A stretch of 64,000 bases of DNA from Diprion similis. Taxonomy: Eukaryota > Arthropoda > Insecta > Hymenoptera > Diprionidae. The translations under genes and the position numbers were made by a program. Below the pieces are notes generated by a model. It saw only the letters and a program-made list of their open reading frames with translations. It was not told where the DNA came from and made no database searches. The stretch covers positions 4,340,001 through 4,404,000 of the forward strand of contig NC_060115.1 in the NCBI RefSeq assembly GCF_021155765.1. Direction: 5' to 3'. Below, piece after piece: positions 21,137-48,660 of this stretch. Within the stretch, counting starts at the first letter, position 1. Every line of letters starts with the position of its first letter.

Positions 21137-24100
21137 GGGGTACCCTTTCTCAACTATTCGAACCCGAGGAACTCTAAATTCGTGTAAGGAAACTCGTGGG
21201 GCTAACAGCACAAAAATAGCGATTGAAATCCTCAGTTTTTCGGCTGTAACTTTTGATCCGCTGCTCGCAGCGTATTGGGACTGCGCTCAATCGATTTCTC
21301 TCGCAAAATTACGTCGGAATAGCGCCCCACAGAATCGATTGCAGCACTTTTCAAAATCGTCGAAATTTTCGTCAAAAATCCAAAGGGGTTAGCCTTACTT
21401 TTTTTTGCGATTTAGAAGCTGAAAATTTCTGGTCTCCGAATTGATTTGTATGACCGTTTCTAGACTAATTGGGACCCCAGGAACTCAAAAAACACTTTGA
21501 AATAAGCGTAGGAACAACAGCAGAGAAATGACGATGAAAATCTGCAGTTTTTCGGCTGTAACTTTTGATCCGTTGCTCGCAGCGTATTGGGACTGCGCTC
21601 AATCGATTTCTCTCGCAAAATTACGTCGGAATAGTGCCCTACAGAATCGATTGCAGCACTTTTCGAAATCATCGAAATTTTCGTCAAAAATCCAAAGGGG
21701 TTAGCCTTACTTTTTTTGCGATTTTTGGGGCTGAAAACTTCTGGTCTCCGAATTGATTTGTATGACCGTTTCTTGACTAATTGGGACCCCAGGAACTCAC
21801 AAAACACATTGAAAAAAGCGTAGGAGCACCAGCAGAGAAATGACGATGAAAATCTGCAGTTTTTCGGCTGTAACTTTTGATCCGTTGCTCGCAGCGTATT
21901 GGGACTGCGCTCAATCGATTTCTCTCGCAAAATTACGTCGGAATAGTGCCCTACAGAATCGATTGCAGCACTTTTCAAAATCGTCGAAATTTTCGTCAAA
22001 AATCCAAAGGGGTTAGCCTTACTTTTTTTGCGATTTTTGGAGCTGAAAATTTCTGGTCTCCGAATTGATTTGTATGACCGTTTCTAGACTAATTGGGACC
22101 CCAGGAACACAAAAAACACATTAAAAATAGCGTAGGAACAACAGCAGAGAAATGACGATGAAAATCTGCAGTTTTTTGGCTGTAACTTTTGATCCGTTGC
22201 TCGCAGCGTATTGGGACTGCGCTCAATCGATTTCTCTCGCAAAATTACGTCGGAATAGCGCCCCACAGAATCGATTGCAGCACTTTTCAAAATCGTCGAA
22301 ATTTTCGTCAAAAATCCAAAGGGGTTAGCCTTACTTTTTTTGCGATTTTTGGAGCTGAAAATTTCTGGTCTCCGAATTGATTTGTATGACCGTTTCTAGA
22401 CTAATTGGGACCCCAGGAACTCACAAAACACATCAAAAAAAGCGTAAGAGCACCAGCAGAGAAATGACGATGAAAATCTGCAGTTTTTCGGCTGTAACTT
22501 TTGATCCGTTGCTCGCAGCGTATTGGGACTGCGCTCAATCGATTTCTCTCGCAAAATTACGTCGGAATAGTGCCCTACAGAATCGATTGCAGCACTTTTC
22601 AAAATCGTCGAAATTTTCGTCAAAAAAGCAAAGGGGTTAGCCTTACTTTTTTTTGCGATTTTTGAAGCTGAAAATTTCTGGTCTCCGAATTGATTTGTAT
22701 GACCGTTTCTAGACTAATTGGGACCCCAGGAACTCAAAAAACACTTTGAAATAAGCGTAGGAACAACAGCAGAGAAATGACGATGAAAATCTGCAGTTTT
22801 TCGGCTGTAACTTTTGATCCGTTGCTCGCAGCGTATTGGGACTGCGCTCAATCGATTTCTCTCGCAAAATTACGTCGGAATAGTGCCCTACAGAATCGAT
22901 TGCAGCACTTTTCGAAATCATCGGAATTTTCGTCAAAAATCCAAAGGGGTTAGCCTTACTTTTTTTGCGATTTTTGGAGCTGAAAACTTCTGGTCTCCGA
23001 ATTGATTTGTATGACCGTTTCTTGACTAATTGGGACCCCAGGAACTCACAAAACACATCAAAAAAAGCGTCAGAGCACCAGCAGAGAAATGACGATGAAA
23101 ATCTGCAGTTTTTCGGCTGTAACTTTTGATCCGTTGCTCGCAGCGTATTGGGACTGCGCTCAATCGATTTCTCTCGCAAAATTACGTCGGAATAGTGCCC
23201 TACAAAATCGATTGCAGCACTTTTCAAAATCGTCGAAATTTTCGTCAGAAAAGCAAAGGGGTTAGCCTTACTTTTTTTTGCGATTTTTGAAGCTAAAAAT
23301 TTCTGGTCTCCGAATTGATTTGTATGACCGTTTCTAGACTAATTGGGACCCCAGGAACTCAAAAAACACTTTGAAATAAGCGTAGGAACAACAGCAGAGA
23401 AATGACGATGAAAATCTGCAGTTTTTTGGCTGTAACTTTTGATCCGTTGCTCGCAGCGTATTGGGACTGCGCTCAATCGATTTCTCTCGCAAAATTACGT
23501 CGGAATAGCGCCCCACAGAATCGATTGCAGCACTTTTCAAAATCGTCGAAATTTTCGTCAAAAATCCAAAGGGGTTAGCCTTACTTTTTTTGCGATTTTT
23601 GGAGCTGAAAATTTCTGGTCTCCGAATTGATTTGTATGACCGTTTCTAGACTAATTGGGACCCCAGGAACTCACAAAACACATCAAAAAAAGCGTAAGAG
23701 CACCAGCAGAGAAATGACGATGAAAATCTGCAGTTTTTCGGCTGTAACTTTTGATCCGTTGCTCGCAGCGTATTGGGACTGCGCTCAATCGATTTCTCTC
23801 GCAAAATTACGTCGGAATAGTGCCCTACAGAATCGATTGCAGCACTTTTCAAAATCGTCGAAATTTTCGTCAAAAAAGCAAAGGGGTTAGCCTTACTTTT
23901 TTTTGCGATTTTTGAAGCTGAAAATTTCTGGTCTCCGAATTGATTTGTATGACCGTTTCTAGACTAATTGGGACCCCAGGAACTCAAAAAACACTTTGAA
24001 ATAAGCGTAGGAACAACAGCAGAGAAATGACGATGAAAATCTGCAGTTTTTCGGCTGTAACTTTTGATCCGTTGCTCGCAGCGTATTGGGACTGCGCTCA

Positions 24101-27100
24101 ATCGATTTCTCTCGCAAAATTACGTCGGAATAGTGCCCTACAGAATCGATTGCAGCACTTTTCAAAATCGTCGAAATTTTCGTCAAAAAAGCAAAGGGGT
24201 TAGCCTTACTTTTTTTTGCGATTTTTGAAGCTGAAAATTTCTGGTCTCCGAATTGATTCGTATGACCGTTTCTAGACTAATTGGGACCCCAGGAACTCAA
24301 AAAACACTTTGAAATAAGCGTAGGAACAACTGCAGAGAAATGACGATGAAAATCTGCAGTTTTTCGGCTGTAACTTTTGATCCGTTGCTCGCAGCGTATT
24401 GGGACTGCGCTCAATCGATTTCTCTCGCGAAATTACGTCGGAATAGCGCCCTACAGAATCGATTGCAGCACTTTTCGAAATCATCGAAATTTTCGTCAAA
24501 AATCCAAAGGGGTTAGCCTTACTTTTTTTGCGATTTTTGGAGCTGAAAACTTCTGGTCTCCGAATTGATTTGTATGACCGTTTCTTGACTAATTGGGACC
24601 CCAGGAACTCACAAAACACATTAAAAAAAGCGTAGGAGCACCAGCAGAGAAATGACGATGAAAATCTGCAGTTTTTCGGCTGTAACTTTTGATCCGTTGC
24701 TCGCAGCGTATTGGGACTGCGCTCAATCGATTTCTCTCGCAAAATTACGTCGGAATAGTGCCCTACAGAATCGATTGCAGCACTTTCCAAAATCGTCGAA
24801 ATTTTCGTCAAAAAAGCAAAGGGGTTAGCCTTACTTTTTTTTGCGATTTTTGAAGCTGAAAATTTCTGGTCTCCGAATTGATTTGTATGACCGTTTCTTG
24901 ACTAATTGGGACCCCAGGAACTCACAAAACACATCAAAAAAAGCGTAAGAGCACCAGCAGAGAAATGACGATGAAAATCTGCAGTTTTTCGGCTGTAACT
25001 TTTGATCCGTTGCTCGCAGCGTATTGGGACTGCGCTCAATCGATTTCTCTCGCAAAATTACGTCGGAATAGTGCCCTACAGAATCGATTGCAGCACTTTT
25101 CGAAATCATCGAAATTTTCGTCAAAAATCCACAGGGGTTAGCCTTACTTTTTTTGCGATTTTTGGAGCTGAAAACTTCTGGTCTCCGAATTGATTTGTAT
25201 GACCGTTTCTTGACTAATTGGGACCCCAGGAACTCAAAAAACACTTTGAAAAAAGCGTAGGAACAACAGCAGAGAAATGACGATGAAAATCTGCAGTTTT
25301 TCGGCTGTAACTTTTGATCCGTTGCTCGCAGCGTATTGGGACTGCGCTCAATCGATTTCTCTCGCAAAATTACGTCGGAATAGTGCCCTACAGAATCGAT
25401 TGCAGCACTTTTCAAAATCGTCGAAATTTTCGTCAAAAATCCAAAGGGGTTAGCCTTACTTTTTTTGCGATTTTTGGAGCTGAAAATTTCTGGTCTCCGA
25501 ATTGATTTGTATGACCGTTTCTAGACTAATTGGGACCCCAAGAACTCAAAAAACACATTAAAAAAAGCGTAGGAACAACAGCAGAGAAATGACGATGGAA
25601 ATCTGCAGTTTTTTGGCTGTAACTTTTGATCCGTTGCTCGCAGCGTATTGGGACTGCGCTCAATCGATTTCTCTCGCAAAATTACGTCGGAATAGCGCCC
25701 CACAGAATCGATTGCAGCACTTTTCAAAATCGTCGAAATTTTCGTCAAAAATCCAAAGGGGTTAGCCTTACTTTTTTTGCGATTTTTGGAGCTGAAAATT
25801 TCTGGTCTCCGAATTGATTTGTATGACCGTTTCTAGACTAATTGGGACCCCAGGAACTCAAAAAACACATCAAAAAAAGCGTAGGAACAACAGCAGAGAA
25901 ATGACGATGAAAATCTGCAGTTTTTTGGCTGTAACTTTTGATCCGTTGCTCGCAGCGTATTGGGACTGCGCTCAATCGATTTCTCTCGCAAAATTACGTC
26001 GGAATAGTGCCCTACAGAACCGATTGCAGCACTTTTCGAAATCATCGAAATTTTCGTCAAAAATCCAAAGGGGTTAGCCTTACTTTTTTTGCGATTTTTG
26101 GAGCTGAAAATTTCTGGTCTCCGAATTGATTTGTATGACCGTTTCTTGACTAATTGGGACCCCAGGAACTCACAAAACACATCAAAAAAAGCGTAAGAGC
26201 ACCAGCAGAGAAATGACGATGAAAATCTGCAGTTTTTCGGCTGTAACTTTTGATCCGTTGCTCGCAGCGTATTGGGACTGCGCTCAATCGATTTCTCTCG
26301 CAAAATTACGTCGGAATAGTGCCCTACAGAATCGATTGCAGCACTTTTCAAAATCGTCGAAATTTTCGTCAAAAAAGCAAAGGGGTTAGCCTTACTTTTT
26401 TTGCGATTTTTGGAGCTGAAAACTTCTGGTCTCCGAATTGATTTGTATGACCGTTTCTTGACTAATTGGGACCCCAGGAACTCACAAAACACATCAAAAA
26501 AAGCGTAAGAGCACCAGCAGAGAAATGACGATGAAAATCTGCAGTTTTTTGGCTGTAACTTTTGATCCGTTGCTCGCAGCGTATTGGGACTGCGCTCAAT
26601 CGGTTTCTCTCGCAAAATTACGTCGGAATAGTGCCCCACAGAACCGATTGCAGCACTTTTCGAAATCATCGAAATTTTCGTCAAAAATCCAAAGGGGTTA
26701 GCCTTACTTTTTTTGCGATTTTTGGAGCTGAAAACTTCTGGTCTCCGAATTGATTTGTATGACCGTTTCTTGACTAATTGGGACCCCAGGAACTCACAAA
26801 ACACATCAAAAAAAGCGTAAGAGCACCAGCAGAGAAATGACGATGAAAATCTGCAGTTTTTCGGCTGTAACTTTTGATCCGTTGCTCGCAGCGTATTGGG
26901 ACTGCGCTCAATCGATTTCTCTCGCAAAATTACGTCGGAATAGTGCCCTACAGAATCGATTGCAGCACTTTTCAAAATCGTCGAAATTTTCGTCAAAAAA
27001 GCAAAGGGGTTAGCCTTACTTTTTTTTGCGATTCTTGAAGCTGAAAATTTCTGGTCTCCGAATTGATTTGTATGACCGTTTCTAGACTAATCGGGACCCC

Positions 27101-28956
27101 AGGAACTCAAAAAACACTTTGAAATAAGCGTAGGAACAACAGCAGAGAAATGACGATGAAAATCTGCAGTTTTTTGGCTGTAACTTTTGATCCGTTGCTC
27201 GCAGCGTATTGGGACTGCGCTCAATCGATTTCTCTCGCAAAATTACGTCGGAATAGTGCCCTACAGAACCGATTGCAGCACTTTTCGAAATCATCGAAAT
27301 TTTCGTCAAAAATCCAAAGGGGTTAGCCTTACTTTTTTTGCGATTTTTGGAGCTGAAAACTTCTGGTCTCCGAATTGATTTGTATGACCGTTTCTTGACT
27401 AATTGGGACCCCAGGAACTCACAAAACACATCAAAAAAAGCGTAAGAGCACCAGCAGAGAAATGACGATGAAAATCTGCAGTTTTTCGGCTGTAACTTTT
27501 GATCCGTTGCTCGCAGCGTATTGGGACTGCGCTCAATCGATTTCTCTCGCAAAATTACGTCGGAATAGTGCCCTACAGAATCGATTGCAGCACTTTTCAA
27601 AATCGTCGAAATTTTCGTCAAAAAAGCAAAGGGGTTAGCCTTACTTTTTTTTGCGATTCTTGAAGCTGAAAATTTCTGGTCTCCGAATTGATTTGTATGA
27701 CCGTTTCTAGACTAATTGGGACCCCAGGAACTCAAAAAACACTTTGAAATAAGCGTAGGAACAACAGCAGAGAAATGACGATGAAAATCTGCAGTTTTTA
27801 GGCTGTAACTTTTGATCCGTTGCTCGCAGCGTATTGGGACTGCGCTCAATCGATTTCTCTCGCAAAATTACGTCGGAATAGTGCCCTACAGAATCGATTG
27901 CAGCACTTTTCAAAATCGTCGAAATTTTCGTCAAAAATCCAAAGGGGTTAGCCTTACTTTTTTTGCGATTTTTGGAGCTGAAAACTTCTGGTCTCCGAAT
28001 TGATTTGTATGACCGTTTCTTGACTAATTGGGACCCCAGGAACTCACAAAACACATTAAAAAAAGCGTAAGAGCACCAGCAGAGAAATGACGATGAAAAT
28101 CTGCAGTTTTTCGGCTGTAACTTTTGATCCGTTGCTCGCAGCGTATTGGGACTGCGCTCAATCGATTTCTCTCGCAAAATTACGTCGGAATAGTGCCCTA
28201 CAGAATCAATTGCAGCACTTTTTAAAATCGTCGAAATTTCCGTCAAAAAAGCAAAGGGGTAAGCCTTCCTTTTTTTTGCGATTTTTGAAGCTGAAAATTT
28301 CTGGTCTCCGAATTGATTTGTATGACCGTTTCTAGACTAATTGGGACCCCAGGAACTCAAAAAACACTTTGAAATAAGCGTAGGAACAACAGCAGAGAAA
28401 TGACGATGAAAATCTGCAGTTTTTTGGCTGTAACTTTTGATCCGTTGCTCGCAGCGTATTGGGACTGCGCTCAATCGATTTCTCTCGCAAAATTACGTCG
28501 GAATAGTGCCCTACAGAATCGATTGCAGCACTTTTCGAAATCATCGGAATTTTCGTCAAAAATCCAAAGGGGTTAGCCTTACTTTTTTTGCGATTTTTGG
28601 AGCTGAAAACTTCTGGTCTCCGAATTGATTTGTATGACCGTTTCTTGACTAATTGGGACCCCAGGAACTCACAAAACACATCAAAAAAAGCGTAGGAGCA
28701 CCAGCAGAGAAATGACGATGAAAATCTGCAGTTTTTCGGCTGTAACTTTTGATCCGTTGCTCGCAGCGTATTGGGACTGCGCTCAATCGATTTCTCTCGC
28801 AAAATTACGTCGGAATAGTGCCCTACAGAATCGATTGCAGCACTTTTCAAAATCGTCGAAATTTTCGTCAAAAAAGCAAAGGGGTTAGCCTTACTTTTTT
28901 TTGCGATTTTTGAAGCTGAAAATTTCTGGTCTCCGAATTGATTTGTATGACCGTTT

Positions 28957-31454
28957 CTAGACTAATTGGGACCCCAGGAACTCAAAAAACACTTTGAAAA
29001 AAGCGTAGGAACAACAGCAGAGAAATGACGATGAAAATCCGCAGTTTTTCGGCTGTAACTTTTGATCCGTTGCTCGCAGCGTATTGGGACTGCGCTCAAT
29101 CGATTTCTCTCGCAAAATTACGTCGGAATAGTGCCCTACAGAATCGATTGCAGCACTTTTCAAAATCGTCGAAATTTTCGTCAAAAATCCAAAGGGGTTA
29201 GCCTTACTTTTTTTGCGATTTTTGAAGCTGAAAACTTCTGGTCTCCGAATTGATTTGTATGACCGTTTCTTGACTAATTGGGACCCCAGGAACTCACAAA
29301 ACACATTAAAAAAAGCGTAAGAGCACCAGCAGAGAAATGACGATGAAAATCTGCAGTTTTTCGGCTGTAACTTTTGATCCGTTGCTCGCAGCGTATTGGG
29401 ACTGCGCTCAATCGATTTCTCTCGCAAAATTACGTCGGAAGAGTGCCCTACAGAATCGATTGCAGCACTTTTCAAAATCGTCGAAATTTTCGTCAAAAAA
29501 GCAAAGGGGTTAGCCTTACTTTTTTTGCGATTTTTGGAGCTGAAAACTTCTGGTCTCCGAATTGATTTGTATGACCGTTTCTTGACTAATTGGGACCCCA
29601 GGAACTCACAAAACACATTAAAAGAAGCGTAGGAGCACCAGCAGAGAAATGACGATGAAAATCTGCAGTTTTTCGGCTGTAACTTTTGATCCGTTGCTCG
29701 CAGCGTATTGGGACTGCGCTCAATCGATTTCTCTCTCAAAATTACGTCGGAATAGTGCCCTACAGAATCGATTGCAGCACTTTTCAAAATCGTCGAAATT
29801 TTCGTCAAAAAAGCAAAGGGGTTAGCCTTACTTTTTTTTGCGATTTTTGAAGCTGAAAATTTCTGGTCTCCGAATTGATTTGTATGACCGTTTCTAGACT
29901 AATCGGGACCCCAGGAACTCAAAAAACACTTTGAAAAAAGCGTAGGAACAACAGCAGAGAAATGACGATGAAAATCTGCAGTTTTTCGGCTGTAACTTTT
30001 GATCCGTTGCTCGCAGCGTATTGGGACTGCGCTCAATCGATTTCTCTCGCAAAATTACGTCGGAATAGTGCCCTACAGAATCTATTGCAGCACTTTTCAA
30101 AATCGTCGAAATTTTCGTCAAAAATCCAAAGGGGTTAGCCTTACTTTTTTTGCGATTTTTGGAGCTGAAAATTTCTGGTCTCCGAATTGATTTGTATGAC
30201 CGTTTCTAGACTAATTGGGACCCCAGGAACTCAAAAAACACTCTGAAAAAAGCGTAGGAACAACAGCAGAGAAATGACGATGAAAATCTGCAGTTTTTCG
30301 GCTGTAACTTTTGATCCGTTGCTCGCAGCGTATTGGGACTGCGCTCAATCGATTTCTCTCGCAAAATTACGTCGGAATAGTGCCCTACAGAATCGATTGC
30401 AGCACTTTTCAAAATCGTCGAAATTTTCGTCAAAAATCCAAAGGGGTTAGCCTTACTTTTTTTGCGATTTTTGAAGCTGAAAACTTCTGGTCTCCGAATT
30501 GATTTGTATGACCGTTTCTTGACTAATTGGGACCCCAGGAACTCACAAAACACATTAAAAAAAGCGTAAGAGCACCAGCAGAGAAATGACGATGAAAATC
30601 TGCAGTTTTTCGGCTGTAACTTTTGATCCGTTGCTCGCAGCGTATTGGGACTGCGCTCAATCGATTTCTCTCGCAAAATTACGTCGGAAGAGTGCCCTAC
30701 AGAATCGATTGCAGCACTTTTCAAAATCGTCGAAATTTTCGTCAAAAAAGCAAAGGGGTTAGCCTTACTTTTTTTGCGATTTTTGGAGCTGAAAACTTCT
30801 GGTCTCCGAATTGATTTGTATGACCGTTTCTTGACTAATTGGGACCCCAGGAACTCACAAAACACATTAAAAGAAGCGTAGGAGCACCAGCAGAGAAATG
30901 ACGATGAAAATCTGCAGTTTTTCGGCTGTAACTTTTGATCCGTTGCTCGCAGCGTATTGGGACTGCGCTCAATCGATTTCTCTCTCAAAATTACGTCGGA
31001 ATAGTGCCCTACAGAATCGATTGCAGCACTTTTCAAAATCGTCGAAATTTTCGTCAAAAAAGCAAAGGGGTTAGCCTTACTTTTTTTTGCGATTTTTGAA
31101 GCTGAAAATTTCTGGTCTCCGAATTGATTTGTATGACCGTTTCTAGACTAATCGGGACCCCAGGAACTCAAAAAACACTTTGAAAAAAGCGTAGGAACAA
31201 CAGCAGAGAAATGACGATGAAAATCTGCAGTTTTTCGGCTGTAACTTTTGATCCGTTGCTCGCAGCGTATTGGGACTGCGCTCAATCGATTTCTCTCGCA
31301 AAATTACGTCGGAATAGTGCCCTACAGAATCTATTGCAGCACTTTTCAAAATCGTCGAAATTTTCGTCAAAAATCCAAAGGGGTTAGCCTTACTTTTTTT
31401 GCGATTTTGGAGCTGAAAATTTCTGGTCTCCGAATTGATTTGTATGACCGTTTC
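28957..31454. repeat. Tetramer higher-order repeat, two 1249-bp units
   Basis: Diagnostic variants recur exactly 1249 bp apart. GGAAGAGTGCC occurs at about 29437 and 30686, AATCTATTGCAG at about 30081 and 31330, and TCTCTCTCAAAA at about 29731 and 30980. Related blocks carrying GGAAGAGTGCC recur at about 32246, 34744 and 42243, at multiples of the monomer length. Confidence 0.85.
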
Positions 31455-34400
31455 TAGACTAATTGGGACCCCAGGAACTCAAAAAACACTCTGAAAAAAG
31501 CGTAGGAACAACAGCAGAGAAATGACGATGAAAATCTGCAGTTTTTCGGCTGTAACTTTTGATCCGTTGCTCGCAGCGTATTGGGACTGCGCTCAATCGA
31601 TTTCTCTCGCAAAATTACGTCGGAATAGTGCCCTACAGAATCGATTGCAGCACTTTTCAAAATCGTCGAAATTTTCGTCAAAAATCCAAAGGGGTTAGCC
31701 TTACTTTTTTTGCGATTTTTGGAGCTGAAAACTTCTGGTCTCCGAATTGATTTGTATGACCGTTTCTTGACTAATTGGGACCCCAGGAACTCACAAAACA
31801 CATTAAAAAAAGCGTAAGAGCACCAGCAGAGAAATGACGATGAAAATCTGCAGTTTTTCGGCTGTAACTTTTGATCCGTTGCTCGCAGCGTATTGGGACT
31901 GCGCTCAATCGATTTCTCTGGCAAAATTACGTCGGAATAGTGCCCTACAGAATCGATTGCAGCACTTTTCAAAATCGTCGAAATTTTCGTCAAAAATCCA
32001 AAGGGGTTAGCCTTACTTTTTTTGCGATTTTTGAAGCTGAAAACTTCTGGTCTCCGAATTGATTTGTATGACCGTTTCTTGACTAATTGGGACCCCAGGA
32101 ACTCACAAAACACATTAAAAAAAGCGTAAGAGCACCAGCAGAGAAATGACGATGAAAATCTGCAGTTTTTCGGCTGTAACTTTTGATCCGTTGCTCGCAG
32201 CGTATTGGGACTGCGCTCAATCGATTTCTCTCGCAAAATTACGTCGGAAGAGTGCCCTACAGAATCGATTGCAGCACTTTTCAAAATCGTCGAAATTTTC
32301 GTCAAAAAAGCAAAGGGGTTAGCCTTACTTTTTTTGCGATTTTTGGAGCTGAAAACTTCTGGTCTCCGAATTGATTTGTATGACCGTTTCTTGACTAATT
32401 GGGACCCCAGGAACTCACAAACCACATTAAAAGAAGCGTAGGAGCACCAGCAGAGAAATGACGATGAAAATCTGCAGTTTTTCGGCTGTAACTTTTGATC
32501 CGTTGCTCGCAGCGTATTGGGACTGCGCTCAATCGATTTCTCTCGCAAAATTACGTCGGAATAGTGCCCTACAGAATCGATTGCAGCACTTTTCAAAATC
32601 GTCGAAATTTTCGTCAAAAAAGCAAAGGGGTTAGCCTTACTTTTTTTTGCGATTTTTGAAGCTGAAAATTTCTGGTCTCCGAATTGATTTGTATGACCGT
32701 TTCTAGACTAATCGGGACCCCAGGAACTCAAAAAACACTTTGAAAAAAGCGTAGGAACAACAGCAGAGAAATGACGATGAAAATCTGCAGTTTTTCGGCT
32801 GTAACTTTTGATCCGTTGCTCGCAGCGTATTGGGACTGCGCTCAATCGATTTCTCTCGCAAAATTACGTCGGAATAGTGCCCTACAGAATCGATTGCAGC
32901 ACTTTTCAAAATCGTCGAAATTTTCGTCAAAAATCCAAAGGGGTTAGCCTTACTTTTTTTGCGATTTTTGGAGCTGAAAATTTCTGGTCTCCGAATTGAT
33001 TTGTATGACCGTTTCTAGACTAATTGGGACCCCAGGAACTCAAAAAACACTCTGAAAAAAGCGTAGGAACAACAGCAGAGAAATGACGATGAAAATCTGC
33101 AGTTTTTCGGCTGTAACTTTTGATCCGTTGCTCGCAGCGTATTGGGACTGCGCTTAATCGATTTCTCTCGCAAAATTACGTCGGAATAGTGCCCTACAGA
33201 ATCGATTGCAGCACTTTTCGAAATCATCGAAATTTTCGTCAAAAATCCAAAGGGGTTAGCCTTACTTTTTTTGCGATTTTTGGAGCTGAAAACTTCTGGT
33301 CTCCGAATTGATTTGTATGACCGTTTCTTGACTAATTGGGACCCCAGGAACTCACAAAACACATTAAAAAAAGCGTAGGAGCTCCAGCAGAGAAATGACG
33401 ATGAAAATCTGCAGTTTTTCGGCTGTAACTTTTGATCCGTTGCTCGCAGCGTATTGGGACTGCGCTCAATCGATTTCTCTCGCAAAATTACGTCAGAATA
33501 GTGCCCTACAGAATCGATTGCAGCACTTTTCAAAATCGTCGAAATTTTCGTCAAAAATCCAAAGGGGTTAGCCTTACTTTTTTTGCGATTTTTGGAGCTG
33601 AAAATTTCTGGTCTCCGAATTGATTTGTATGACCGTTTCTAGACTAATTGGGACCCCAGGAACTCACAAAACACTTTGAAAAAAGCGTAGGAACAACAGC
33701 AGAGAAATGACGATGAAAATCTGCAGTTTTTTGGCTGTAACTTTTGATCCGTTGCTCGCAGCGTATTGGGACTGCGCTCAATCGATTTCTCTCGCAAAAT
33801 TACGTCGGAATAGTGCCCTACAGAATCGATTGCAGCACTTTTCAAAATCGTCGAAATTTTCGTCAAAAAAGCAAAGGGGTTAGCCTTACTTTTTTTTGCG
33901 ATTTTTGAAGCTGAAAATTTCTGGTCTCCGAATTGATTTGTATGACCGTTTCTAGACTAATTGGGACCCCAGGAACTTAAAAAACACTTTGAAAAAAGCG
34001 TAGGAACAACAGCAGAGAAATGACGATGAAAATCTGCAGTTTTTCGGCTGTAACTTTTGATCCGTTGCTCGCAGCGTATTGGGACTGCGCTCAATCGATT
34101 TCTCTCGCAAAATTACGTCGGAATAGTGCCCTACAGAATCGATTGCAGCACTTTTCGAAATCATCGAAATTTTCGTCAAAAATCCAAAGGGGTTAGCCTT
34201 ACTTTTTTTGCGATTTTTGGAGCTGAAAACTTCTGGTCTCCGAATTGATTTGTATGACCGTTTCTTGACTAATTGGGACCCCAGGAACTCACAAAACACA
34301 TTAAAAAAAGCGTAGGAGCACCAGCAGAGAAATGACGATGAAAATCTGCAGTTTTTCGGCTGTAACTTTTGATCCGTTGCTCGCAGCGTATTGGGACTGC

Positions 34401-35512
34401 GCTCAATCGATTTCTCTCGCAAAATTACGTCGGAATAGTGCCCTACAGAATCGATTGCAGCACTTTTCAAAATCGTCGAAATTTTCATCAAAAATCCAAA
34501 GGGGTTAGCCTTACTTTTTTTGCGATTTTTGGAGCTGAAAATTTCTGGTCTCCGAATTGATTTGTATGACCGTTGCTAGACTAATTGGGACCCCAGGAAC
34601 TCAAAAAACACATCAAAAAAAGCGTAGGAACAACAGCAGAGAAATGACGATGAAAATCTGCAGTTTTTTGGCTGTAACTTTTGATCCGTTGCTCGCAGCG
34701 TATTGGGACTGCGCTCAATCGATTTCTCTCGCAAAATTACGTCGGAAGAGTGCCCTACAGAATCGATTGCAGCACTTTTCAAAATCGTCGAAATTTTCGT
34801 CAAAAAAGCAAAGGGGTTAGCCTTACTTTTTTTGCGATTTTTGGAGCTGAAAACTTCTGGTCTCCGAATTGATTTGTATGACCGTTTCTTGACTAATTGG
34901 GACCCCAGGAACTCACAAAACACATTAAAAGAAGCGTAGGAGCACCAGCAGAGAAATGACGATGAAAATCTGCAGTTTTTCGGCTGTAACTTTTGATCCG
35001 TTGCTCGCAGCGTATTGGGACTGCGCTCAATCGATTTCTCTCGCAAAATTACGTCGGAATAGTGCCCTACAGAATCGATTGCAGCACTTTTCAAAATCGT
35101 CGAAATTTTCGTCAAAAAAGCAAAGGGGTTAGCCTTACTTTTTTTTGCGATTTTTGAAGCTGAAAATTTCTGGTCTCCGAATTGATTTGTATGACCGTTT
35201 CTAGACTAATCGGGACCCCAGGAACTCAAAAAACACTTTGAAAAAAGCGTAGGAACAACAGCAGAGAAATGACGATGAAAATCTGCAGTTTTTCGGCTGT
35301 AACTTTTGATCCGTTGCTCGCAGCGTATTGGGACTGCGCTCAATCGATTTCTCTCGCAAAATTACGTCGGAATAGTGCCCTACAGAATCGATTGCAGCAC
35401 TTTTCAAAATCGTCGAAATTTTCGTCAAAAATCCAAAGGGGTTAGCCTTACTTTTTTTGCGATTTTTGGAGCTGAAAATTTCTGGTCTCCGAATTGATTT
35501 GTATGACCGTTT

Positions 35513-38500
35513 CTAGACTAATTGGGACCCCAGGAACTCAAAAAACACTCTGAAAAAAGCGTAGGAACAACAGCAGAGAAATGACGATGAAAATCTGCAG
35601 TTTTTCGGCTGTAACTTTTGATCCGTTGCTCCCAGCGTATTGGGACTGCGCTCAATCGATTTCTCTCGCAAAATTACGTCGGAATAGTGCCCTACAGAAT
35701 CGATTGCAGCACTTTTCAAAATCGTCGAAATTTTCGTCAAAAATCCAAAGGGGTTAGCCTTACTTTTTTTGCGATTTTTGGAGCTGAAAATTTCTGGTCT
35801 CCGAATTGATTTGTATGACCGTTTCTAGACTAATTGGGACCCCAGGAACTCAAAAAACACATCAAAAAAAGCGTAGGAACAACAGCAGAGAAATTACGAT
35901 GAAAATCTGCAGTTTTTTGGCTGTAACTTTCGATCCGTTGCTCGCAGCGTATTGGGACTGCGCTCAATCGATTTCTCTCGCAAAATTACGTCGGAATAGT
36001 GCCCTACAGAACCGATTGCAGCACTTTTCGAAATCATCGAAATTTTCGTCAAAAATCCAAAGGGGTTAGCCTTACTATTTTTGCGATTTTTGGAGCTGAA
36101 AACTTCTGGTCTCCGAATTGATTTGTATGACCGTTTCTTGACTAATTGGGACCCCAGGAACTCACAAAACACATTAAAAAAAGCGTAAGAGCATTAGCAG
36201 AGAAATGACGATGAAAATCTGCAGTTTTTCGGCTGTAACTTTTGATCCGTTGCTCGCAGCGTATTGGGACTGCGCTCAATCGATTTCTCTGGCAAAATTA
36301 CGTCGGAATAGTGCCCTACAGAATCAATTGCAGCACTTTTCAAAATCGTCGAAATTTTCGTCAAAAAAGCAAAGGGGTTAGCCTTACTTTTTTTTGCGAT
36401 TTTTGAAGCTGAAAATTTCTGGTCTCCGAATTGATTTGTATGACCGTTTCTAGACTAATTGGGACCCCAGGAACTCAAAAAACACTTTGAAATAAGCGTA
36501 GGAACAACAGCAGAGAAATGACGATGAAAATCTGCAGTTTTTCGGCTGTAACTTTTGATCCGTTGCTCGCAGCGTATTGGGACTGCGCTCAATCGATTTC
36601 TCTCGCAAAATTACGTCGGAATAGTGCCCTACAGAATCGATTGCAGCACTTTTCGAAATCATCGAAATTTTCGTCAAAAATCCAAAGGGGTTAGCCTTAC
36701 TTTTTTTTGCGATTTTTAAAGCTGAAAATTTGTGGTCTCCGAATTGATTTGTATGACCGTTTCTAGACTAATTGGGACCCCAGGAACTCAAAAAACACTT
36801 TGAAATAAGCGTAGGAAACACAGCAGAGAAATGACGATGAAAATCTGCAGTTTTTCGGCTGTAACTTTTGATCCGTTGCTCGCAGCGTATTGGGACTGCG
36901 CTTAATCGATTTCTCTCGCAAAATTACGTCGGAATAGTGCCCTACAGAATCGATTGCAGCACTTTTCGAAATCATCAAAATTTTCGTCAAAAATCCAAAG
37001 GGGTTAGCCTTACTTTTTTCGCGATTTTTGGAGCTGAAAACTTCTGGTCTCCGAATTGATTTGTATGACCGTTTCTTGACTAATTGGGACCCCAGGAACT
37101 CACAAAACACATTAAAAAAAGCGTAGGAGCTCCAGCAGAGAAATGACGATGAAAATCTGCAGTTTTTCGGCTGTAACTTTTGATCCGTTGCTCGCAGCGT
37201 ATTGGGACTGCGCTCAATCGATTTCTCTCGCAAAATTACGTCGGAATAGTGCCCTACAGAATCGATTGCAGCACTTTTCGAAATCATCGAAATTTTCGTG
37301 AAAAATCCAAAGGGGTTGGCCTTACTTTTTTTTGCGATTTTTAAAGCTGAAAATTTCTGGTCTCCGAATTGATTTGTATGACCGTTTCTAGACTAATTGG
37401 GACCCCAGGAACTCAAAAAACACTTTGAAATAAGCGTAGGAACAACAGCAGAGAAATGACGATGAAAATCTGCAGTTTTTCGGCTGTAACTTTTGATCCG
37501 TTGCTCGCAGCGTATTGGGACTGCGCTCAATCGATTTCTCTCGCAAAATTACGTCGGAATAGTGCCCTACAGAATCGATTGCAGCACTTTTCGAAATCAT
37601 CGAAATTTTCGTCAAAAATCCAAAGGGGTTAGCCTTACTTTTTTTGCGATTTTTGGAGCTGAAAACTTCTGGTCTCCGAATTGATTTGTATGACCGTTTC
37701 TTGACTAATTGGGACCCCAGGAACTCACAAAACACATTAAAAAAAGCGTAGGAGCTCCAGCAGAGAAATGACGATGAAAATCTGCAGTTTTTCGGCTGTA
37801 ACTTTTGATCCGTTGCTCGCAGCGTATTGGGACTGCGCTCAATCGATTTCTCTCGCAAAATTACGTCGGAATAGTGCCCTACAGAATCGATTGCAGCACT
37901 TTTCGAAATCATCGAAATTTTCGTGAAAAATCCAAAGGGGTTAGCCTTACTTTTTTTTGCGATTTTTAAAGCTGAAAATTTCTGGTCTCCGAATTGATTT
38001 GTATGACCGTTTCTAGACTAATTGGGACCCCAGGAACTCAAAAAACACTCTGAAAAAAGCGTAGGAACAACAGCAGAGAAATGACGATGAAAATCTGCAG
38101 TTTTTCGGCTGTAACTTTTGATCCGTTGCTCCCAGCGTATTGGGACTGCGCTCAATCGATTTCTCTCGCAAAATTACGTCGGAATAGTGCCCTACAGAAT
38201 CGATTGCAGCACTTTTCAAAATCGTCGAAATTTTCGTCAAAAATCCAAAGGGGTTAGCCTTACTTTTTTTGCGATTTTTGGAGCTGAAAATTTCTGGTCT
38301 CCGAATTGATTTGTATGACCGTTTCTAGACTAATTGGGACCCCAGGAACTCAAAAAACACATCAAAAAAAGCGTAGGAACAACAGCAGAAAAATTACGAT
38401 GAAAATCTGCAGTTTTTTGGCTGTAACTTTCGATCCGTTGCTCGCAGCGTATTGGGACTGCGCTCAATCGATTTCTCTCGCAAAATTACGTCGGAATAGT

Positions 38501-40512
38501 GCCCTACAGAACCGATTGCAGCACTTTTCGAAATCATCGAAATTTTCGTCAAAAATCCAAAGGGGTTAGCCTTACTATTTTTGCGATTTTTGGAGCTGAA
38601 AACTTCTGGTCTCCGAATTGATTTGTATGACCGTTTCTTGACTAATTGGGACCCCAGGAACTCACAAAACACATTAAAAAAAGCGTAAGAGCATTAGCAG
38701 AGAAATGACGATGAAAATCTGCAGTTTTTCGGCTGTAACTTTTGATCCGTTGCTCGCAGCGTATTGGGACTGCGCTCAATCGATTTCTCTGGCAAAATTA
38801 CGTCGGAATAGTGCCCTACAGAATCAATTGCAGCACTTTTCAAAATCGTCGAAATTTTCGTCAAAAAAGCAAAGGGGTTAGCCTTACTTTTTTTTGCGAT
38901 TTTTGAAGCTGAAAATTTCTGGTCTCCGAATTGATTTGTATGACCGTTTCTAGACTAATTGGGACCCCAGGAACTCAAAAAACACTTTGAAATAAGCGTA
39001 GGAACAACAGCAGAGAAATGACGATGAAAATCTGCAGTTTTTCGGCTGTAACTTTTGATCCGTTGCTCGCAGCGTATTGGGACTGCGCTCAATCGATTTC
39101 TCTCGCAAAATTACGTCGGAATAGTGCCCTACAGAATCGATTGCAGCACTTTTCGAAATCATCGAAATTTTCGTCAAAAATCCAAAGGGGTTAGCCTTAC
39201 TTTTTTTTGCGATTTTTAAAGCTGAAAATTTGTGGTCTCCGAATTGATTTGTATGACCGTTTCTAGACTAATTGGGACCCCAGGAACTCAAAAAACACTT
39301 TGAAATAAGCGTAGGAAACACAGCAGAGAAATGACGATGAAAATCTGCAGTTTTTCGGCTGTAACTTTTGATCCGTTGCTCGCAGCGTATTGGGACTGCG
39401 CTTAATCGATTTCTCTCGCAAAATTACGTCGGAATAGTGCCCTACAGAATCGATTGCAGCACTTTTCGAAATCATCAAAATTTTCGTCAAAAATCCAAAG
39501 GGGTTAGCCTTACTTTTTTCGCGATTTTTGGAGCTGAAAACTTCTGGTCTCCGAATTGATTTGTATGACCGTTTCTTGACTAATTGGGACCCCAGGAACT
39601 CACAAAACACATTAAAAAAAGCGTAGGAGCTCCAGCAGAGAAATGACGATGAAAATCTGCAGTTTTTCGGCTGTAACTTTTGATCCGTTGCTCGCAGCGT
39701 ATTGGGACTGCGCTCAATCGATTTCTCTCGCAAAATTACGTCGGAATAGTGCCCTACAGAATCGATTGCAGCACTTTTCGAAATCATCGAAATTTTCGTG
39801 AAAAATCCAAAGGGGTTGGCCTTACTTTTTTTTGCGATTTTTTAAGCTGAAAATTTCTGGTCTCCGAATTGATTTGTATGACCGTTTCTAGACTAATTGG
39901 GACCCCAGGAACTCAAAAAACACTTTGAAATAAGCGTAGGAACAACAGCAGAGAAATGACGATGAAAATCTGCAGTTTTTCGGCTGTAACTTTTGATCCG
40001 TTGCTCGCAGCGTATTGGGACTGCGCTCAATCGATTTCTCTCGCAAAATTACGTCGGAATAGTGCCCTACAGAATCGATTGCAGCACTTTTCGAAATCAT
40101 CGAAATTTTCGTCAAAAATCCAAAGGGGTTAGCCTTACTTTTTTTGCGATTTTTGGAGCTGAAAACTTCTGGTCTCCGAATTGATTTGTATGACCGTTTC
40201 TTGACTAATTGGGACCCCAGGAACTCACAAAACACATTAAAAAAAGCGTAGGAGCTCCAGCAGAGAAATGACGATGAAAATCTGCAGTTTTTCGGCTGTA
40301 ACTTTTGATCCGTTGCTCGCAGCGTATTGGGACTGCGCTCAATCGATTTCTCTCGCAAAATTACGTCGGAATAGTGCCCTACAGAATCGATTGCAGCACT
40401 TTTCGAAATCATCGAAATTTTCGTGAAAAATCCAAAGGGGTTAGCCTTACTTTTTTTTGCGATTTTTAAAGCTGAAAATTTCTGGTCTCCGAATTGATTT
40501 GTATGACCGTTT
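35513..40512. repeat. Octamer higher-order repeat, two adjacent 2500-bp units
   Basis: 35513-38012 and 38013-40512 share rare variants in the same order: GCTCCCAGCG, TTACTATTTTTGCG, GAGCATTAGCAG, TCTCTGGCAAAA, AAATTTGTGG, GGAAACACAGCAG, GCGCTTAATCG, CATCAAAATT, GGGGTTGGCC. By eye I found only two differences: GCAGAGAAATT against GCAGAAAAATT, and ATTTTTAAAG against ATTTTTTAAG. A third, partly altered copy begins at 43011. Confidence 0.88.
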
Positions 40513-43500
40513 CTAGACTAATTGGGACCCCAGGAACTCAAAAAACACTTTGAAATAAGCGTAGGAACAACAGCAGAGAAATGACGATGAAAATCTGCAG
40601 TTTTTCGGCTGTAACTTTTGATCCGTTGCTCGCAGCGTATTGGGACTGCGCTCAATCGATTTCTCTCGCAAAATTACGTCGGAATAGTGCCCTACAGAAT
40701 CGATTGCAGCACTTTTCGAAATCATCGAAATTTTCGTCAAAAATCCAAAGGGGTTAGCCTTACTTTTTTTGCGATTTTTGGAGCTGAAAACTTCTGGTCT
40801 CCGAATTGATTTGTATGACCGTTTCTTGACTAATTGGGACCCCAGGAACTCACAAAACACATTAAAAAAAGCGTAGGAGCTCCAGCAGAGAAATGACGAT
40901 GAAAATCTGCAGTTTTTCGGCTGTAACTTTTGATCCGTTGCTCGCAGCGTATTGGGACTGCGCTCAATCGATTTCTCTCGCAAAATTACGTCGGAATAGT
41001 GCCCTACAGAATCGATTGCAGCACTTTTCAAAATCGTCGAAATTTTCGTCAAAAATCCAAAGGGGTTAGCCTTACTTTTTTTGCGATTTTTGGAACTGGA
41101 AATTTCTGGTCTCCGAATTGATTTGTATGACCGTTTCTAGACTAATTGGGACCCCAGGAACTCACAAAACACTTTGAAAAAAGCGTAGGAACAACAGCAG
41201 AGAAATGACGATGAAAATCTGCAGTTTTTTGGCTGTAACTTTTGATCCGTTGCTCGCAGCGTATTGGGACTGCGCTCAATCGATTTCTCTCGCAAAATTA
41301 CGTCGGAATAGTGCCCTACAGAATCGATTGCAGCACTTTTCAAAATCGTCGAAATTTTCGTCAAAAAAGCAAAGGGGTTAGCCTTACTTTTTTTGCGATT
41401 TTTGGAGCTGAAAACTTCTGGTCTCCGAATTGATTTGTATGACCGTTTCTTGACTAATTGGGACCCCAGGAACTCACAAAACACATTAAAAGAAGCGTAG
41501 GAGCACCAGCAGAGAAATGACGATGAAAATCTGCAGTTTTTCGGCTGTAACTTTTGATCCGTTGCTCGCAGCGTATTGGGACTGCGCTAAATCGATTTCT
41601 CTCGCAAAATTACGTCGGAATAGTGCCCTACAGAATCGATTGCAGCACTTTTCAAAATCGTCGAAATTTTCGTCAAAAAAGCAAAGGGGTTAGCCTTACT
41701 TTTTTTTGCGATTTTTGAAGCTGAAAATTTCTGGTCTCCGAATTGATTTGTATGACCGTTTCTAGACTAATTGGGACCCCAGGAACTCAAAAAACACTTT
41801 GAAAAAAGCGTAGGAACAACAGCAGAGAAATGACGATGAAAATCTGCAGTTTTTCGGCTGTAACTTTTGATCCGTTGCTCGCAGCGTATTGGGACTGCGC
41901 TCAATCGATTTCTCTCGCAAAATTACGTCGGAATAGTGCCCTACAGAATCGATTGCAGCACTTTTCAAAATCGTCGAAATTTTCGTCAAAAATCCAAAGG
42001 GGTTAGCCTTACTTTTTTTGCGATTTTTGAAGCTGAAAACTTCTGGTCTCCGAATTGATTTGTATGACCGTTTCTTGACTAATTGGGACCCCAGGAACTC
42101 ACAAAACACATTAAAAAAAGCGTAAGAGCACCAGCAGAGAAATGACGATGAAAATCTGCAGTTTTTCGGCTGTAACTTTTGATCCGTTGCTCGCAGCGTA
42201 TTGGGACTGCGCTCAATCGATTTCTCTCGCAAAATTACGTCGGAAGAGTGCCCTACAGAATCGATTGCAGCACTTTTCAAAATCGTCGAAATTTTCGTCA
42301 AAAAAGCAAAGGGGTTAGCCTTACTTTTTTTGCGATTTTTGGAGCTGAAAACTTCTGGTCTCCGAATTGATTTGTATGACCGTTTCTTGACTAATTGGGA
42401 CCCCAGGAACTCACAAAACACATTAAAAGAAGCGTAGGAGCACCAGCAGAGAAATGACGATGAAAATCTGCAGTTTTTCGGCTGTAACTTTTGATCCGTT
42501 GCTCGCAGCGTATTGGGACTGCGCTCAATCGATTTCTCTCGCAAAATTACGTCGGAATAGTGCCCTACAGAATCGATTGCAGCACTTTTCAAAATCGTCG
42601 AAATTTTCGTCAAAAAAGCAAAGGGGTTAGCCTTACTTTTTTTTGCGATTTTTGAAGCTGAAAATTTCTGGTCTCCGAATTGATTTGTATGACCGTTTCT
42701 AGACTAATCGGGACCCCAGGAACTCAAAAAACACTTTGAAAAAAGCGTAGGAACAACAGCAGAGAAATGACGATGAAAATCTGCAGTTTTTCGGCTGTAA
42801 CTTTTGATCCGTTGCTCGCAGCGTATTGGGACTGCGCTCAATCGATTTCTCTCGCAAAATTACGTCGGAATAGTGCCCTACAGAATCGATTGCAGCACTT
42901 TTCAAAATCGTCGAAATTTTCGTCAAAAATCCAAAGGGGTTAGCCTTACTTTTTCTGCGATTTTTGGAGCTGAAAATTTCTGGTCTCCGAATTGATTTGT
43001 ATGACCGTTTCTAGACTAATTGGGACCCCAGGAACTCAAAAAACACTCTGAAAAAAGCGTAGGAACAACAGCAGAGAAATGACGATGAAAATCTGCAGTT
43101 TTTCGGCTGTAACTTTTGATCCGTTGCTCCCAGCGTATTGGGACTGCGCTCAATCGATTTCTCTCGCAAAATTACGTCGGAATAGTGCCCTACAGAATCG
43201 ATTGCAGCACTTTTCAAAATCGTCGAAATTTTCGTCAAAAATCCAAAGGGGTTAGCCTTACTTTTTTTGCGATTTTTGGAGCTGAAAATTTCTGGTCTCC
43301 GAATTGATTTGTATGACCGTTTCTAGACTAATTGGGACCCCAGGAACTCAAAAAACACATCAAAAAAAGCGTAGGAACAACAGCAGAGAAATTACGATGA
43401 AAATCTGCAGTTTTTTGGCTGTAACTTTCGATCCGTTGCTCGCAGCGTATTGGGACTGCGCTCAATCGATTTCTCTCGCAAAATTACGTCGGAATAGTGC

Positions 43501-43947
43501 CCTACAGAACCGATTGCAGCACTTTTCGAAATCATCGAAATTTTCGTCAAAAATCCAAAGGGGTTAGCCTTACTATTTTTGCGATTTTTGGAGCTGAAAA
43601 CTTCTGGTCTCCGAATTGATTTGTATGACCGTTTCTTGACTAATTGGGACCCCAGGAACTCACAAAACACATTAAAAAAAGCGTAAGAGCACCAGCAGAG
43701 AAATGACGATGAAAATCTGCAGTTTTTCGGCTGTAACTTTTGATCCGTTGCTCGCAGCGTATTGGGACTGCGCTCAATCGATTTCTCTGGCAAAATTACG
43801 TCGGAATAGTGCCCTACAGAATCAATTGCAGCACTTTTCAAAATCGTCGAAATTTTCGTCAAAAAAGCAAAGGGGTTAGCCTTACTTTTTTTTGCGATTT
43901 TTGAAGCTGAAAATTTCTGGTCTCCGAATTGATTTGTATGACCGTTT

Positions 43948-45823
43948 CTAGACTAATTGGGACCCCAGGAACTCAAAAAACACTTTGAAATAAGCGTAGG
44001 AACAACAGCAGAGAAATGACGATGAAAATCTGCAGTTTTTCGGCTGTAACTTTTGATCCGTTGCTCGCAGCGTATTGGGACTGCGCTCAATCGATTTCTC
44101 TCGCAAAATTACGTCGGAATAGTGCCCTACAGAATCGATTGCAGCACTTTTCGAAATTATCGAAATTTTCGTCAAAAATCCAAAGGGGTTAGCCTTACTT
44201 TTTTTTGCGATTTTTAAAGCTGAAAATTTGTGGTCTCCGAATTGATTTGTATGACCGTTTCTAGACTAATTGGGACCCCAGGAACTCAAAAAACACTTTG
44301 AAATAAGCGTAGGAAACACAGCAGAGAAATGACGATGAAAATCTGCAGTTTTTCGGCTGTAACTTTTGATCCGTTGCTCGCAGCGTATTGGGACTGCGCT
44401 TAATCGATTTCTCTCGCAAAATTACGTCGGAATAGTGCCCTACAGAATCGATTGCAGCACTTTTCGAAATCATCAAAATTTTCGTCAAAAATCCAAAGGG
44501 GTTAGCCTTACTTTTTTCGCGATTTTTGGAGCTGAAAACTTCTGGTCTCCGAATTGATTTGTATGACCGTTTCTTGACTAATTGGGACCCCAGGAACTCA
44601 CAAAACACATTAAAAAAAGCGTAGGAGCTCCAGCAGAGAAATGACGATGAAAATCTGCAGTTTTTCGGCTGTAACTTTTGATCCGTTGCTCGCAGCGTAT
44701 TGGGACTGCGCTCAATCGATTTCTCTCGCAAAATTACGTCGGAATAGTGCCCTACAGAATCGATTGCAGCACTTTTCGAAATCATCGAAATTTTCGTGAA
44801 AAATCCAAAGGGGTTAGCCTTACTTTTTTTTGCGATTTTTAAAGCTGAAAATTTCTGGTCTCCGAATTGATTTGTATGACCGTTTCTAGACTAATTGGGA
44901 CCCCAGGAACTCAAAAAACACTTTGAAATAAGCGTAGGAACAACAGCAGAGAAATGACGATGAAAATCTGCAGTTTTTCGGCTGTAACTTTTGATCCGTT
45001 GCTCGCAGCGTATTGGGACTGCGCTCAATCGATTTCTCTCGCAAAATTACGTCGGAATAGTGCCCTACAGAATCGATTGCAGCACTTTTCGAAATCATCG
45101 AAATTTTCGTCAAAAATCCAAAGGGGTTAGCCTTACTTTTTTTCGCGATTTTTAAAGCTGAAAATTTGTGGTCTCCGAATTGATTTGTATGACCGTTTCT
45201 AGACTAATTGGGACCCCAGGAACTCAAAAAACACTTTGAAATAAGCGTAGGAAACACAGCAGAGAAATGACGATGAAAATCTGCAGTTTTTCGGCTGTAA
45301 CTTTTGATCCGTTGCTCGCAGCGTATTGGGACTGCGCTTAATCGATTTCTCTCGCAAAATTACGTCGGAATAGTGCCCTACAGAATCGATTGCAGCACTT
45401 TTCGAAATCATCAAAATTTTCGTCAAAAATCCAAAGGGGTTAGCCTTACTTTTTTCGCGATTGTTGGAGCTGAAAACTTCTGGTCTCCGAATTGATTTGT
45501 ATGACCGTTTCTTGACTAATTGGGACCCCAGGAACTCACAAAACACATTAAAAAAAGCGTAGGAGCTCCAGCAGAGAAATGACGATGAAAATCTGCAGTT
45601 TTTCGGCTGTAACTTTTGATCCGTTGCTCGCAGCGTATTGGGACTGCGCTCAATCGATTTCTCTCGCAAAATTACGTCGGAATAGTGCCCTACAGAATCG
45701 ATTGCAGCACTTTTCGAAATCATCGAAATTTTCGTGAAAAATCCAAAGGGGTTAGCCTTACTTTTTTTTGCGATTTTTAAAGCTGAAAATTTCTGGTCTC
45801 CGAATTGATTTGTATGACCGTTT
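43948..45823. repeat. Trimer higher-order repeat, two 938-bp units
   Basis: Within the third copy of the octamer block a three-monomer segment is doubled. AAATTTGTGG recurs at about 44227 and 45165, GGAAACACAGCAG at about 44311 and 45249, and GCGCTTAATCG at about 44396 and 45334, each 938 bp apart. Confidence 0.85.
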
Positions 45824-48660
45824 CTAGACTAATTGGGACCCCAGGAACTCAAAAAACACTTTGAAATAAGCGTAGGAACAACAGCAGAGAAATGACGATG
45901 AAAATCTGCAGTTTTTCGGCTGTAACTTTTGATCCGTTGCTCGCAGCGTATTGGGACTGCGCTCAATCGATTTCTCTCGCAAAATTACGTCGGAATAGTG
46001 CCCTACAGAATCAATTGCAGCACTTTTCAAAATCGTCGAAATTTTCGTCAAAAAAGCAAAGGGGTTAGCCTTACTTTTTTTTGCGATTTTTGAAGCTGAA
46101 AATTTCTGGTCTCCGAATTGATTTGTATGACCGTTTCTAGACTAATTGGGACCCCAGGAACTCAAAAAACACTTTGAAATAAGCGTAGGAACAACAGCAG
46201 AGAAATGACGATGAAAATCTGCAGTTTTTCGGCTGTAACTTTTGATCCGTTGCTCGCAGCGTATTGGGACTGCGCTCAATCGATTTCTCTCGCAAAATTA
46301 CGTCGGAATAGTGCCCTACAGAATCGATTGCAGCACTTTTCGAAATCATCGAAATTTTCGTCAAAAATCCAAAGGGGTTAGCCTTACTTTTTTTTGCGAT
46401 TTTTGAAGCTGAAAATTTCTGGTCTCCGAATTGATTTGTATGACCGTTTCTAGACTAATTGGGACCCCAGGAACTCAAAAAACACTTTGAAATAAGCGTA
46501 GGAACAACAGCAGAGAAATGACGATGAAAATCTGCAGTTTTTCGGCTGTAACTTTCGATCCGTTGCTCGCAGCGTATTGGGACTGCGCTCAATCGATTTC
46601 TCTCGCAAAATTACGTCGGAATAGTGCCCTACAGAATCGATTGCAGCACTTTTCAAAATCGTCGAAATTTTCGTCAAAAAAGCAAAGGGGTTAGCCTTAC
46701 TTTTTTTGCGATTTTTGGAGCTGAAAACTTCTGGTCTCCGAATTGATTTGTATGACCGTTTCTTGACTAATTGGGACCCCAGGAACTCACAAAACACATT
46801 AAAAGAAGCGTAGGAGCACCAGCAGAGAAATGACGATGAAAATCTGCAGTTTTTCGGCTGTAACTTTTGATCCGTTGCTCGCAGCGTATTGGGACTGCGC
46901 TCAATCGATTTCTCTTGCAAAATTACGTCGGAATAGTGCCCTACAGAATCGATTGCAGCACTTTTCAAAATCGTCGAAATTTTCGTCAAAAAAGCAAAGG
47001 GGTTAGCCTTACTTTTTTTTGCGATTTTTGAAGCTGAAAATTTCTGGTCTCCGAATTGATTTGTATGACCGTTTCTAGACTAATTGGGACCCCAGGAACT
47101 CAAAAAACACTTTGAAAAAAGCGTAGGAACAACAGCAGAGAAATGACGATGAAAATCTGCAGTTTTTCGGCTGTAACTTTTGATCCGTTGCTCGCAGCGT
47201 ATTGGGACTGCGCTCAATCGATTTCTCTCGCAAAATTACGTCGGAATAGTGCCCTACAGAATCGATTGCAGCACTTTTCAAAATCGTCGAAATTTTCGTC
47301 AAAAAAGCAAAGGGGTTAGCCTTACTTTTTTTTGCGATATTTGAAGCTGAAAATTTCTGGTCTCCGAATTGATTTGTATGACCGTTTCTAGACTAATTGG
47401 GACCCCAGGAACTCAAAAAACACTTTGAAAAAAGCGTAGGAACAACAGCAGAGAAATAACGATGAAAATCTGCAGTTTTTCGGCTGTAACTTTTGATCCG
47501 TTGCTCGCAGCGTATTGGGACTGCGCTCAATCGATTTCTCTCGCAAAATTACGTCGGAATAGTGCCCTACAGAATCGATTGCAGCACTTTTCAAAATCGT
47601 CGAAATTTTCGTCAAAAATCCAAAGGGGTTAGCCTTACTTTTTTTGCGATTTTTGGAGCTGAAAATTTCTGGTCTCCGAATTGATTTGTATGACCGTTTC
47701 TAGACTAATTGGGACCCCAGGAACTCAAAAAACACATCAAAAAAAGCGTAGGAACAACAGCAGAGAAATGACGATGAAAATCTGCAGTTTTTTGGCTGTA
47801 ACTTTTGATCCGTTGCTCGCAGCGTATTGGGACTGCGCTCAATCGATTTCTCTCGCAAAATTACGTCGGAATAGCGCCCTACAGAATCGATTGCAGCACT
47901 TTTCAAAATCGTCGAAATTTCCGTCAAAAATCCAAAGGGGTTAGCCTTACTTTTTTTGCGATTTTTGGAGCTGAAAATTTCTGGTCTCCGAATTGATTTG
48001 TATGACCGTTTCTCGACGAATTGGGACCCCAGAAACTCACAAAACACTTCAAAAAAAGCGTAGGAGCACCAGCAGAGAATCGACGATGAAAATCTGCAGT
48101 TTTTCGGCTGTAACTTTTGATCCGTTGCTCGCAGCGTATTGGGACTGCGCTCAATCGATTTCTCCCGCAAAATTACGTCGGAATAGTGCCCTACAGAATC
48201 GATCGCAGCACTTTTCAAAATCGTCGAAATTTTCGTCAAAAATCCAAAGGGGTTAGCCTTACTTTTTCTGCGATTTTTGGAGCTGAAAATTTCTGGTCTC
48301 TGAATTAATTTGTATGACCGTTTAACGGCTAATTGGAACCCCAGGAACTCAAAAAACACATTTAAAAAAGCGTAGGATCAACAGCAGAGAAATGACGATG
48401 AAAATCGGCAGTTTTTTGGCTGTAACTTCTGATCCGCTGCTTGCAGCGTATTGGGCCTGGGCTTAATCGATTCCTCTAGCAAAATGACGTCGGAATAGTG
48501 CCCTCAAGAATCAATTGCAGCACTTTTTAAAGTCGTCGAAATTTTCGTCAAAAATCCAAAGTAGTTAGCCGTGCCTATTTTTGTCAGCAAAACATTTCAC
48601 GTCCCGGAATTGATCGGTATGATATCCCCTCAACTAATCGGATTTTCAAGAATGTAAAAA

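Follow-up and report, generated by a model that had tools for sequence, protein, structure and literature searches.

A 27.4-kb array of near-identical 312-letter repeats between two genes of Diprion similis

Background

Why should 27.4 kb of near-identical 312-letter repeats lie between two genes? The question is raised by a window of 64,000 bases, the whole stretch of DNA analysed here, in the genome of Diprion similis (Hymenoptera, Diprionidae). The window is C11:4340001-4404000, where C11 is contig NC_060115.1 of the assembly GCF_021155765.1. This assembly holds 269,008,206 bases in 60 contigs, and the 14 chromosome-sized contigs (C1 to C14) amount to 264.5 Mb, or 98.3% of it. The first-pass annotation of the window offered two readings of the repeats: an interstitial euchromatic satellite, or a pericentromere with embedded genes.

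Results and Discussion

Structure of the array

Satellite DNA consists of long head-to-tail arrays of near-identical units, and this is the organization found in the window (Table 1). In the core of the array, TRF reports a period of 312, 87.6 copies, 95% matches, and 0% indels. The core motif is found at 88 positions on the forward strand and at none on the reverse strand, and no unit is inverted. Successive cores are spaced by 312 bases (53 intervals), 313 bases (33), or 311 bases (1). As this spacing is unbroken, the array is therefore continuous and without insertions. The first-pass annotation had counted about 88 copies in one array uninterrupted by transposons; both the TRF result and the motif count agree with the copy number, and spacings of only 311-313 bases throughout leave nothing inserted. 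BLAST extends the right edge to 48622, and decayed satellite sequence can be followed by eye at both edges to about 21150 and 48660, the same limits as had first been proposed.

A composite origin of the unit from two halves (312 = 2 x 156) was considered and rejected. Compared with itself, the 312-bp unit matches best at shifts of 150 and 160, with 38%, and is no recognizable dimer. Since 312 is a multiple of 3, long open frames run through the array on the minus strand, and they are shifted by the 313-bp units. Two of the 26 array reading frames were scanned with Pfam, and they gave weak matches only, none at the curated cut-off. A link to viruses was also rejected: one exact 19-base match to the core, in single copy, in a 3.7-kb IMG/VR contig is attributed to chance. 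From its sequence, this contig may be a leviviricete.

Table 1. Coordinates of the array, of its duplicated blocks, and of the neighbouring genes in the window
Feature	Position	Strand	Remarks
Left neighbour gene, 5' part	18983..20640	-	Pfam LisH_2, E 2.4e-10; inferred start codon 20640
312/313-bp satellite array, 88 head-to-tail units	21150..48660	+	TRF core 21204-48570; outermost decayed edges by eye
Nine-unit block, recurring 24 units on near 42130	34632..37443 (end approximate)	+	99.75% identity
Two adjacent eight-unit blocks, from 35569 and 38069	35569..40568 (end approximate)	+	99.84% identical
Right neighbour gene, uncharacterized	49485..54732	+	Inferred start codon 49485, short first exon, open frame 49828-54732

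Neighbouring genes and flanks

By their inferred start codons, the array appears to separate two divergent genes. The left-hand gene, with its LisH domain, is presumably OFD1-like, and THOC2 lies farther to the left (Pfam THOC2_N). In the right-hand gene, the open frame has no Pfam match. TRF detects a 249-base (83-residue) repeat in this frame, in five copies, at 53024-54269 of the window. The inferred start codons at 20640 (-) and 49485 (+) lie about 0.5 and 0.8 kb from the edges of the array, in agreement with the first estimate of 0.5-0.8 kb. That these genes look active, as the first-pass annotation put it, is an impression. Reading frames near five other arrays of the family were also listed, and one of these loci had no frame of at least 80 aa.

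The flanks of the window array appear to be almost single-copy. In genome searches that skipped very common words, the 604 bases on the left matched only themselves; the 601 bases on the right matched themselves and gave two weak partial matches covering 73 and 129 query bases.

Abundance and distribution in the genome

A search of the source genome for the monomer shows that the family is not local. With two mismatches or fewer allowed, the 29-base core has 14,017 matches on the plus strand and 13,754 on the minus strand (27,771 in all), and the backwards control has 0. If every 312 bases carry one core, these matches correspond to about 8.7 Mb, or about 3.2% of the 269-Mb assembly. Two satellites were counted in this genome, and the window holds one array of the commoner; the other is a 279-bp satellite with 16,156 core matches.

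The 312-bp family was located at 76 places, 33 on the plus strand and 43 on the minus strand, which together cover 12 of the 14 chromosome-sized contigs. Three sources led to these places: core variants that are rare, the top matches of a single unit, and the first core matches listed. Hits at most 40 kb apart on one strand were merged into one place, and some neighbouring places may belong to one array. The located places are spaced by a median of 1.17 Mb and range from near the contig starts to relative position 0.95. This is the pattern of a dispersed satellite, which has many arrays along the chromosome arms and not a single block on each chromosome.

Rare variants account for 69 of the 76 places. 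From these, a Chao2 estimate puts the total near 168 places, which is only approximate because neither size nor variants are the same from array to array. The 69 places are spread unevenly over the contigs (chi-square P 0.0007; C8 with 16 and C3 with 11 are rich), although the sampling by rare variants is itself uneven. No array was located on C5 or C14, where 2.8 and 3.7 places are expected by length; this may be due to chance or sampling. On C6, two arrays in opposite orientation, near 4.88 Mb (-) and 4.96 Mb (+), are at most about 77 kb apart. They carry different variants, and the mean identity between them is 0.893-0.895.

Similarity of units within and between arrays

In the window array, the mean identity of units is 0.960-0.970 at lags 1 to 24 when the outer units are left out. 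The window and 17 fetched loci supplied 541 full-length units for comparison, which were assigned to 14 stretches representing 11 arrays. Within a stretch, the mean identity ranges from 0.891 to 0.978, compared with 0.866-0.949 between different arrays; for pairs of stretches cut from one array it is 0.903 (C1), 0.954 (C6), and 0.970 (C8). The nearest neighbour of a unit lies in its own stretch for 92% of the 541 units, where 10% is expected, and by this measure the units evolve in concert. By mean identity the same holds for 11 of the 14 stretches, whose internal identity exceeds that to any other array. The three exceptions, which resemble some other arrays at least as much as they resemble themselves, have internal identities of 0.894 (C11 at 11.6 Mb), 0.891 (C1 at 0.12 Mb), and 0.908 (C6 at 4.97 Mb).

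The order of units in the window array carries a record of its own. There are 16 runs of at least three consecutive units with a second copy in the array at 99% identity or higher, and the longest comprises nine units. In 200 shuffles of the unit order there were on average 0.6 such runs and at most 4, and the longest run had 5 units. Judging from their near identity, the two adjacent eight-unit blocks in Table 1 are a recent block duplication inside the array. A higher-order repeat of fixed period was rejected, as identity is barely raised at lags 2, 4, and 8; block duplications at mixed lags are found instead.

Units at the edges of arrays are often more diverged. The first unit of the window array differs from the consensus in 21 columns and the last unit in 82, compared with a mean of 8.2 in the middle. 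Five other array edges were compared with the window consensus; the identity of the outermost units is 81, 81, 72, and 86% at four of them and 93% at the fifth. This undecayed edge belongs to the C8 array at 7.26 Mb. These data would fit unequal exchange and conversion on a local scale, together with decay at many of the edges, and the exceptions suggest that the process is not uniform.

Origin and spread of the arrays

Taken as a whole, the array in the window is best read as part of a dispersed interstitial satellite that is kept uniform by unequal exchange, with no function needed to explain the data. The probability of this reading is put at roughly three in four. Arrays would grow, shrink, and stay uniform as units that lie side by side undergo unequal crossing-over and gene conversion. 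New arrays would be seeded elsewhere, for example by the reinsertion of excised circles, and, being nearly harmless, would be retained between genes. A satellite that is selfish or neutral is enough to account for the data. A counterpoint to plain random seeding is the uneven spread over contigs (see above), though with uneven sampling.

Arrays on most chromosomes require some route of spreading. One such route would be a transposable element, Helitron-like or other, that supplied an original short array and carried or spread the units. Short arrays borne by Helitrons are a known route (PMC10048060, PMC12692304). However, when seven flanks of six arrays and two stretches outside the window were compared, no shared carrying element was found. 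The sole match between array flanks is 89 bases at 75%, and it falls inside decayed satellite units; one flank matches an outside stretch over 40 bases at 80%. The almost single-copy flanks of the window array also speak against such a carrier, and this route is considered unlikely.

Possible function

A role in chromosome organization or gene regulation is suggested by the position of the window array between divergent genes, close to both inferred start codons. The arrays might, for example, nucleate repressive chromatin or form a boundary between divergent promoters. The spread over contigs is uneven, and so is the variability along the unit, which is more uneven than under column shuffling (P 0.006; lowest window P 0.175, highest window P 0.053). 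Such unevenness could be constraint, but linked variants and gene conversion may also produce it. Fixed differences between arrays are not uneven along the unit (P 0.118). The unevenness is suggestive only, and a conserved functional block was rejected as a candidate. A structured RNA was likewise rejected, as there is no Rfam match within the window and one unit folded as RNA is not unusual (z -0.64). On balance, a functional role of the arrays seems quite improbable.

A more specific proposal goes further. The arrays would be chromosome-wide, non-random sites, and a core under constraint would attract a protein or repressive chromatin to them. If true, such sites would tune divergent gene pairs like the one in the window, or help chromosomes recognize each other. 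We regard this as a long shot.

Centromeres, chromosome ends, and other satellites

The family could instead mark a pericentromere or centromere with embedded genes. Its unit is about two nucleosomes long, a length common in centromeric satellites (PMC10218199), and it outnumbers the other satellite counted. A centromeric satellite is expected at one major site per chromosome, but of the 12 contigs with located places, 11 have at least two, with array sizes compared for part of the arrays. Coding DNA lies on either side of the window array, and the many places per contig run from contig starts almost to the other end (see above). Neither strand of the consensus holds a CENP-B-like box, the best candidate having 6 of the 9 fixed bases; such a box is not required in insects. 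Because the family lies at so many places on most chromosome-sized contigs, the pericentromeric reading is disfavoured and we consider it very unlikely. Of the two readings first offered, the interstitial one is supported by the same distribution, and the word euchromatic describes the gene context of one array.

The ends of C1 to C14 provide another view of the chromosomes. Nineteen end stretches were fetched, one of which is all N. Among the 18 that hold sequence, 15 are telomere-like or periodic, or match one that is, and the 312-bp unit has no match in any examined end stretch. TTAGG telomere repeats are found at both ends of C1, at the end of C6, and at the starts of C2, C3, and C13. Shorter or diverged TTAGG-like stretches are found at the end of C4 and at the starts of C7 and C11. 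A 148-bp satellite, periodic at 296 bp too, is found at the end of C11 and the start of C14.

The 279-bp satellite is unrelated to the 312-bp family. It is found at the start of C6, at both ends of C8, and at the start of C12, and it amounts to about 4.5 Mb genome-wide (6,628 core matches on the plus strand and 9,528 on the minus strand; control 0). With copies at both ends of C8, it does not follow a simple rule of one block on each chromosome. Of the first 100 exact places listed, none is on C1, those on C2 form one cluster at 3.53-3.56 Mb, and those on C3 begin at 17.17 Mb. As judged from these positions, the 279-bp satellite may be a better centromere candidate than the 312-bp family, and it may be centromeric or subterminal.

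Finally, long arrays are easily collapsed or expanded in assembly, but an assembly artefact in the length or place of the window array is very improbable given that its units differ among themselves, its flanks are nearly unique, its spacing is unbroken, and arrays elsewhere carry their own variants; the presence of the array is secure, and its exact length holds only as assembled.

Comparison with known satellites

The first-pass annotation suggested that the 312-bp family may be undescribed, and no description of it came up in searches of open-licence PMC papers. When strings of the unit were searched for in the full text of open-licence PMC papers, none of the matches listed was a satellite paper by its title.

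Satellites dispersed mainly in euchromatin, abundant ones included, are an established pattern according to several reports (PMC10048060, PMC12692304, PMC8199985, PMC10218199). Some euchromatin-dispersed satellites of insects are described as exceeding 1% of the genome (PMC8199985, PMC12692304). As such abundant satellites are already known, the window array is less of a surprise than the first-pass annotation had suggested.

The resemblances to particular systems are in organization or unit length. The euchromatin-dispersed satellites of Rhodnius prolixus were located by FISH (PMC8199985), whereas the arrays here are placed by assembly position. In Tribolium castaneum, Cast1-Cast9 are described as lying mainly in euchromatic arms, with units near one or two nucleosome lengths (e.g., Cast5, 334 bp); each makes up at most 1%, whereas a single family accounts for about 3.2% of the assembly here (PMC10218199). 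Another example is FvarSat01-306 of the stingless bee Frieseomelitta varia, a dominant satellite of similar unit length (306 bp by its name), which differs in being heterochromatic by FISH (PMC11764717). The 312-bp family is thus an abundant but ordinary dispersed satellite of a kind already known in insects.

As abundant euchromatic satellites have been described in other insects, current views are unchanged by this finding alone. With about 3% of a compact genome present as long interstitial arrays, here adjoining two genes, Diprion similis is a good natural test case for how such arrays arise and lengthen and what they may do to the promoters beside them. The 312-bp arrays also supply a marker set for this species.
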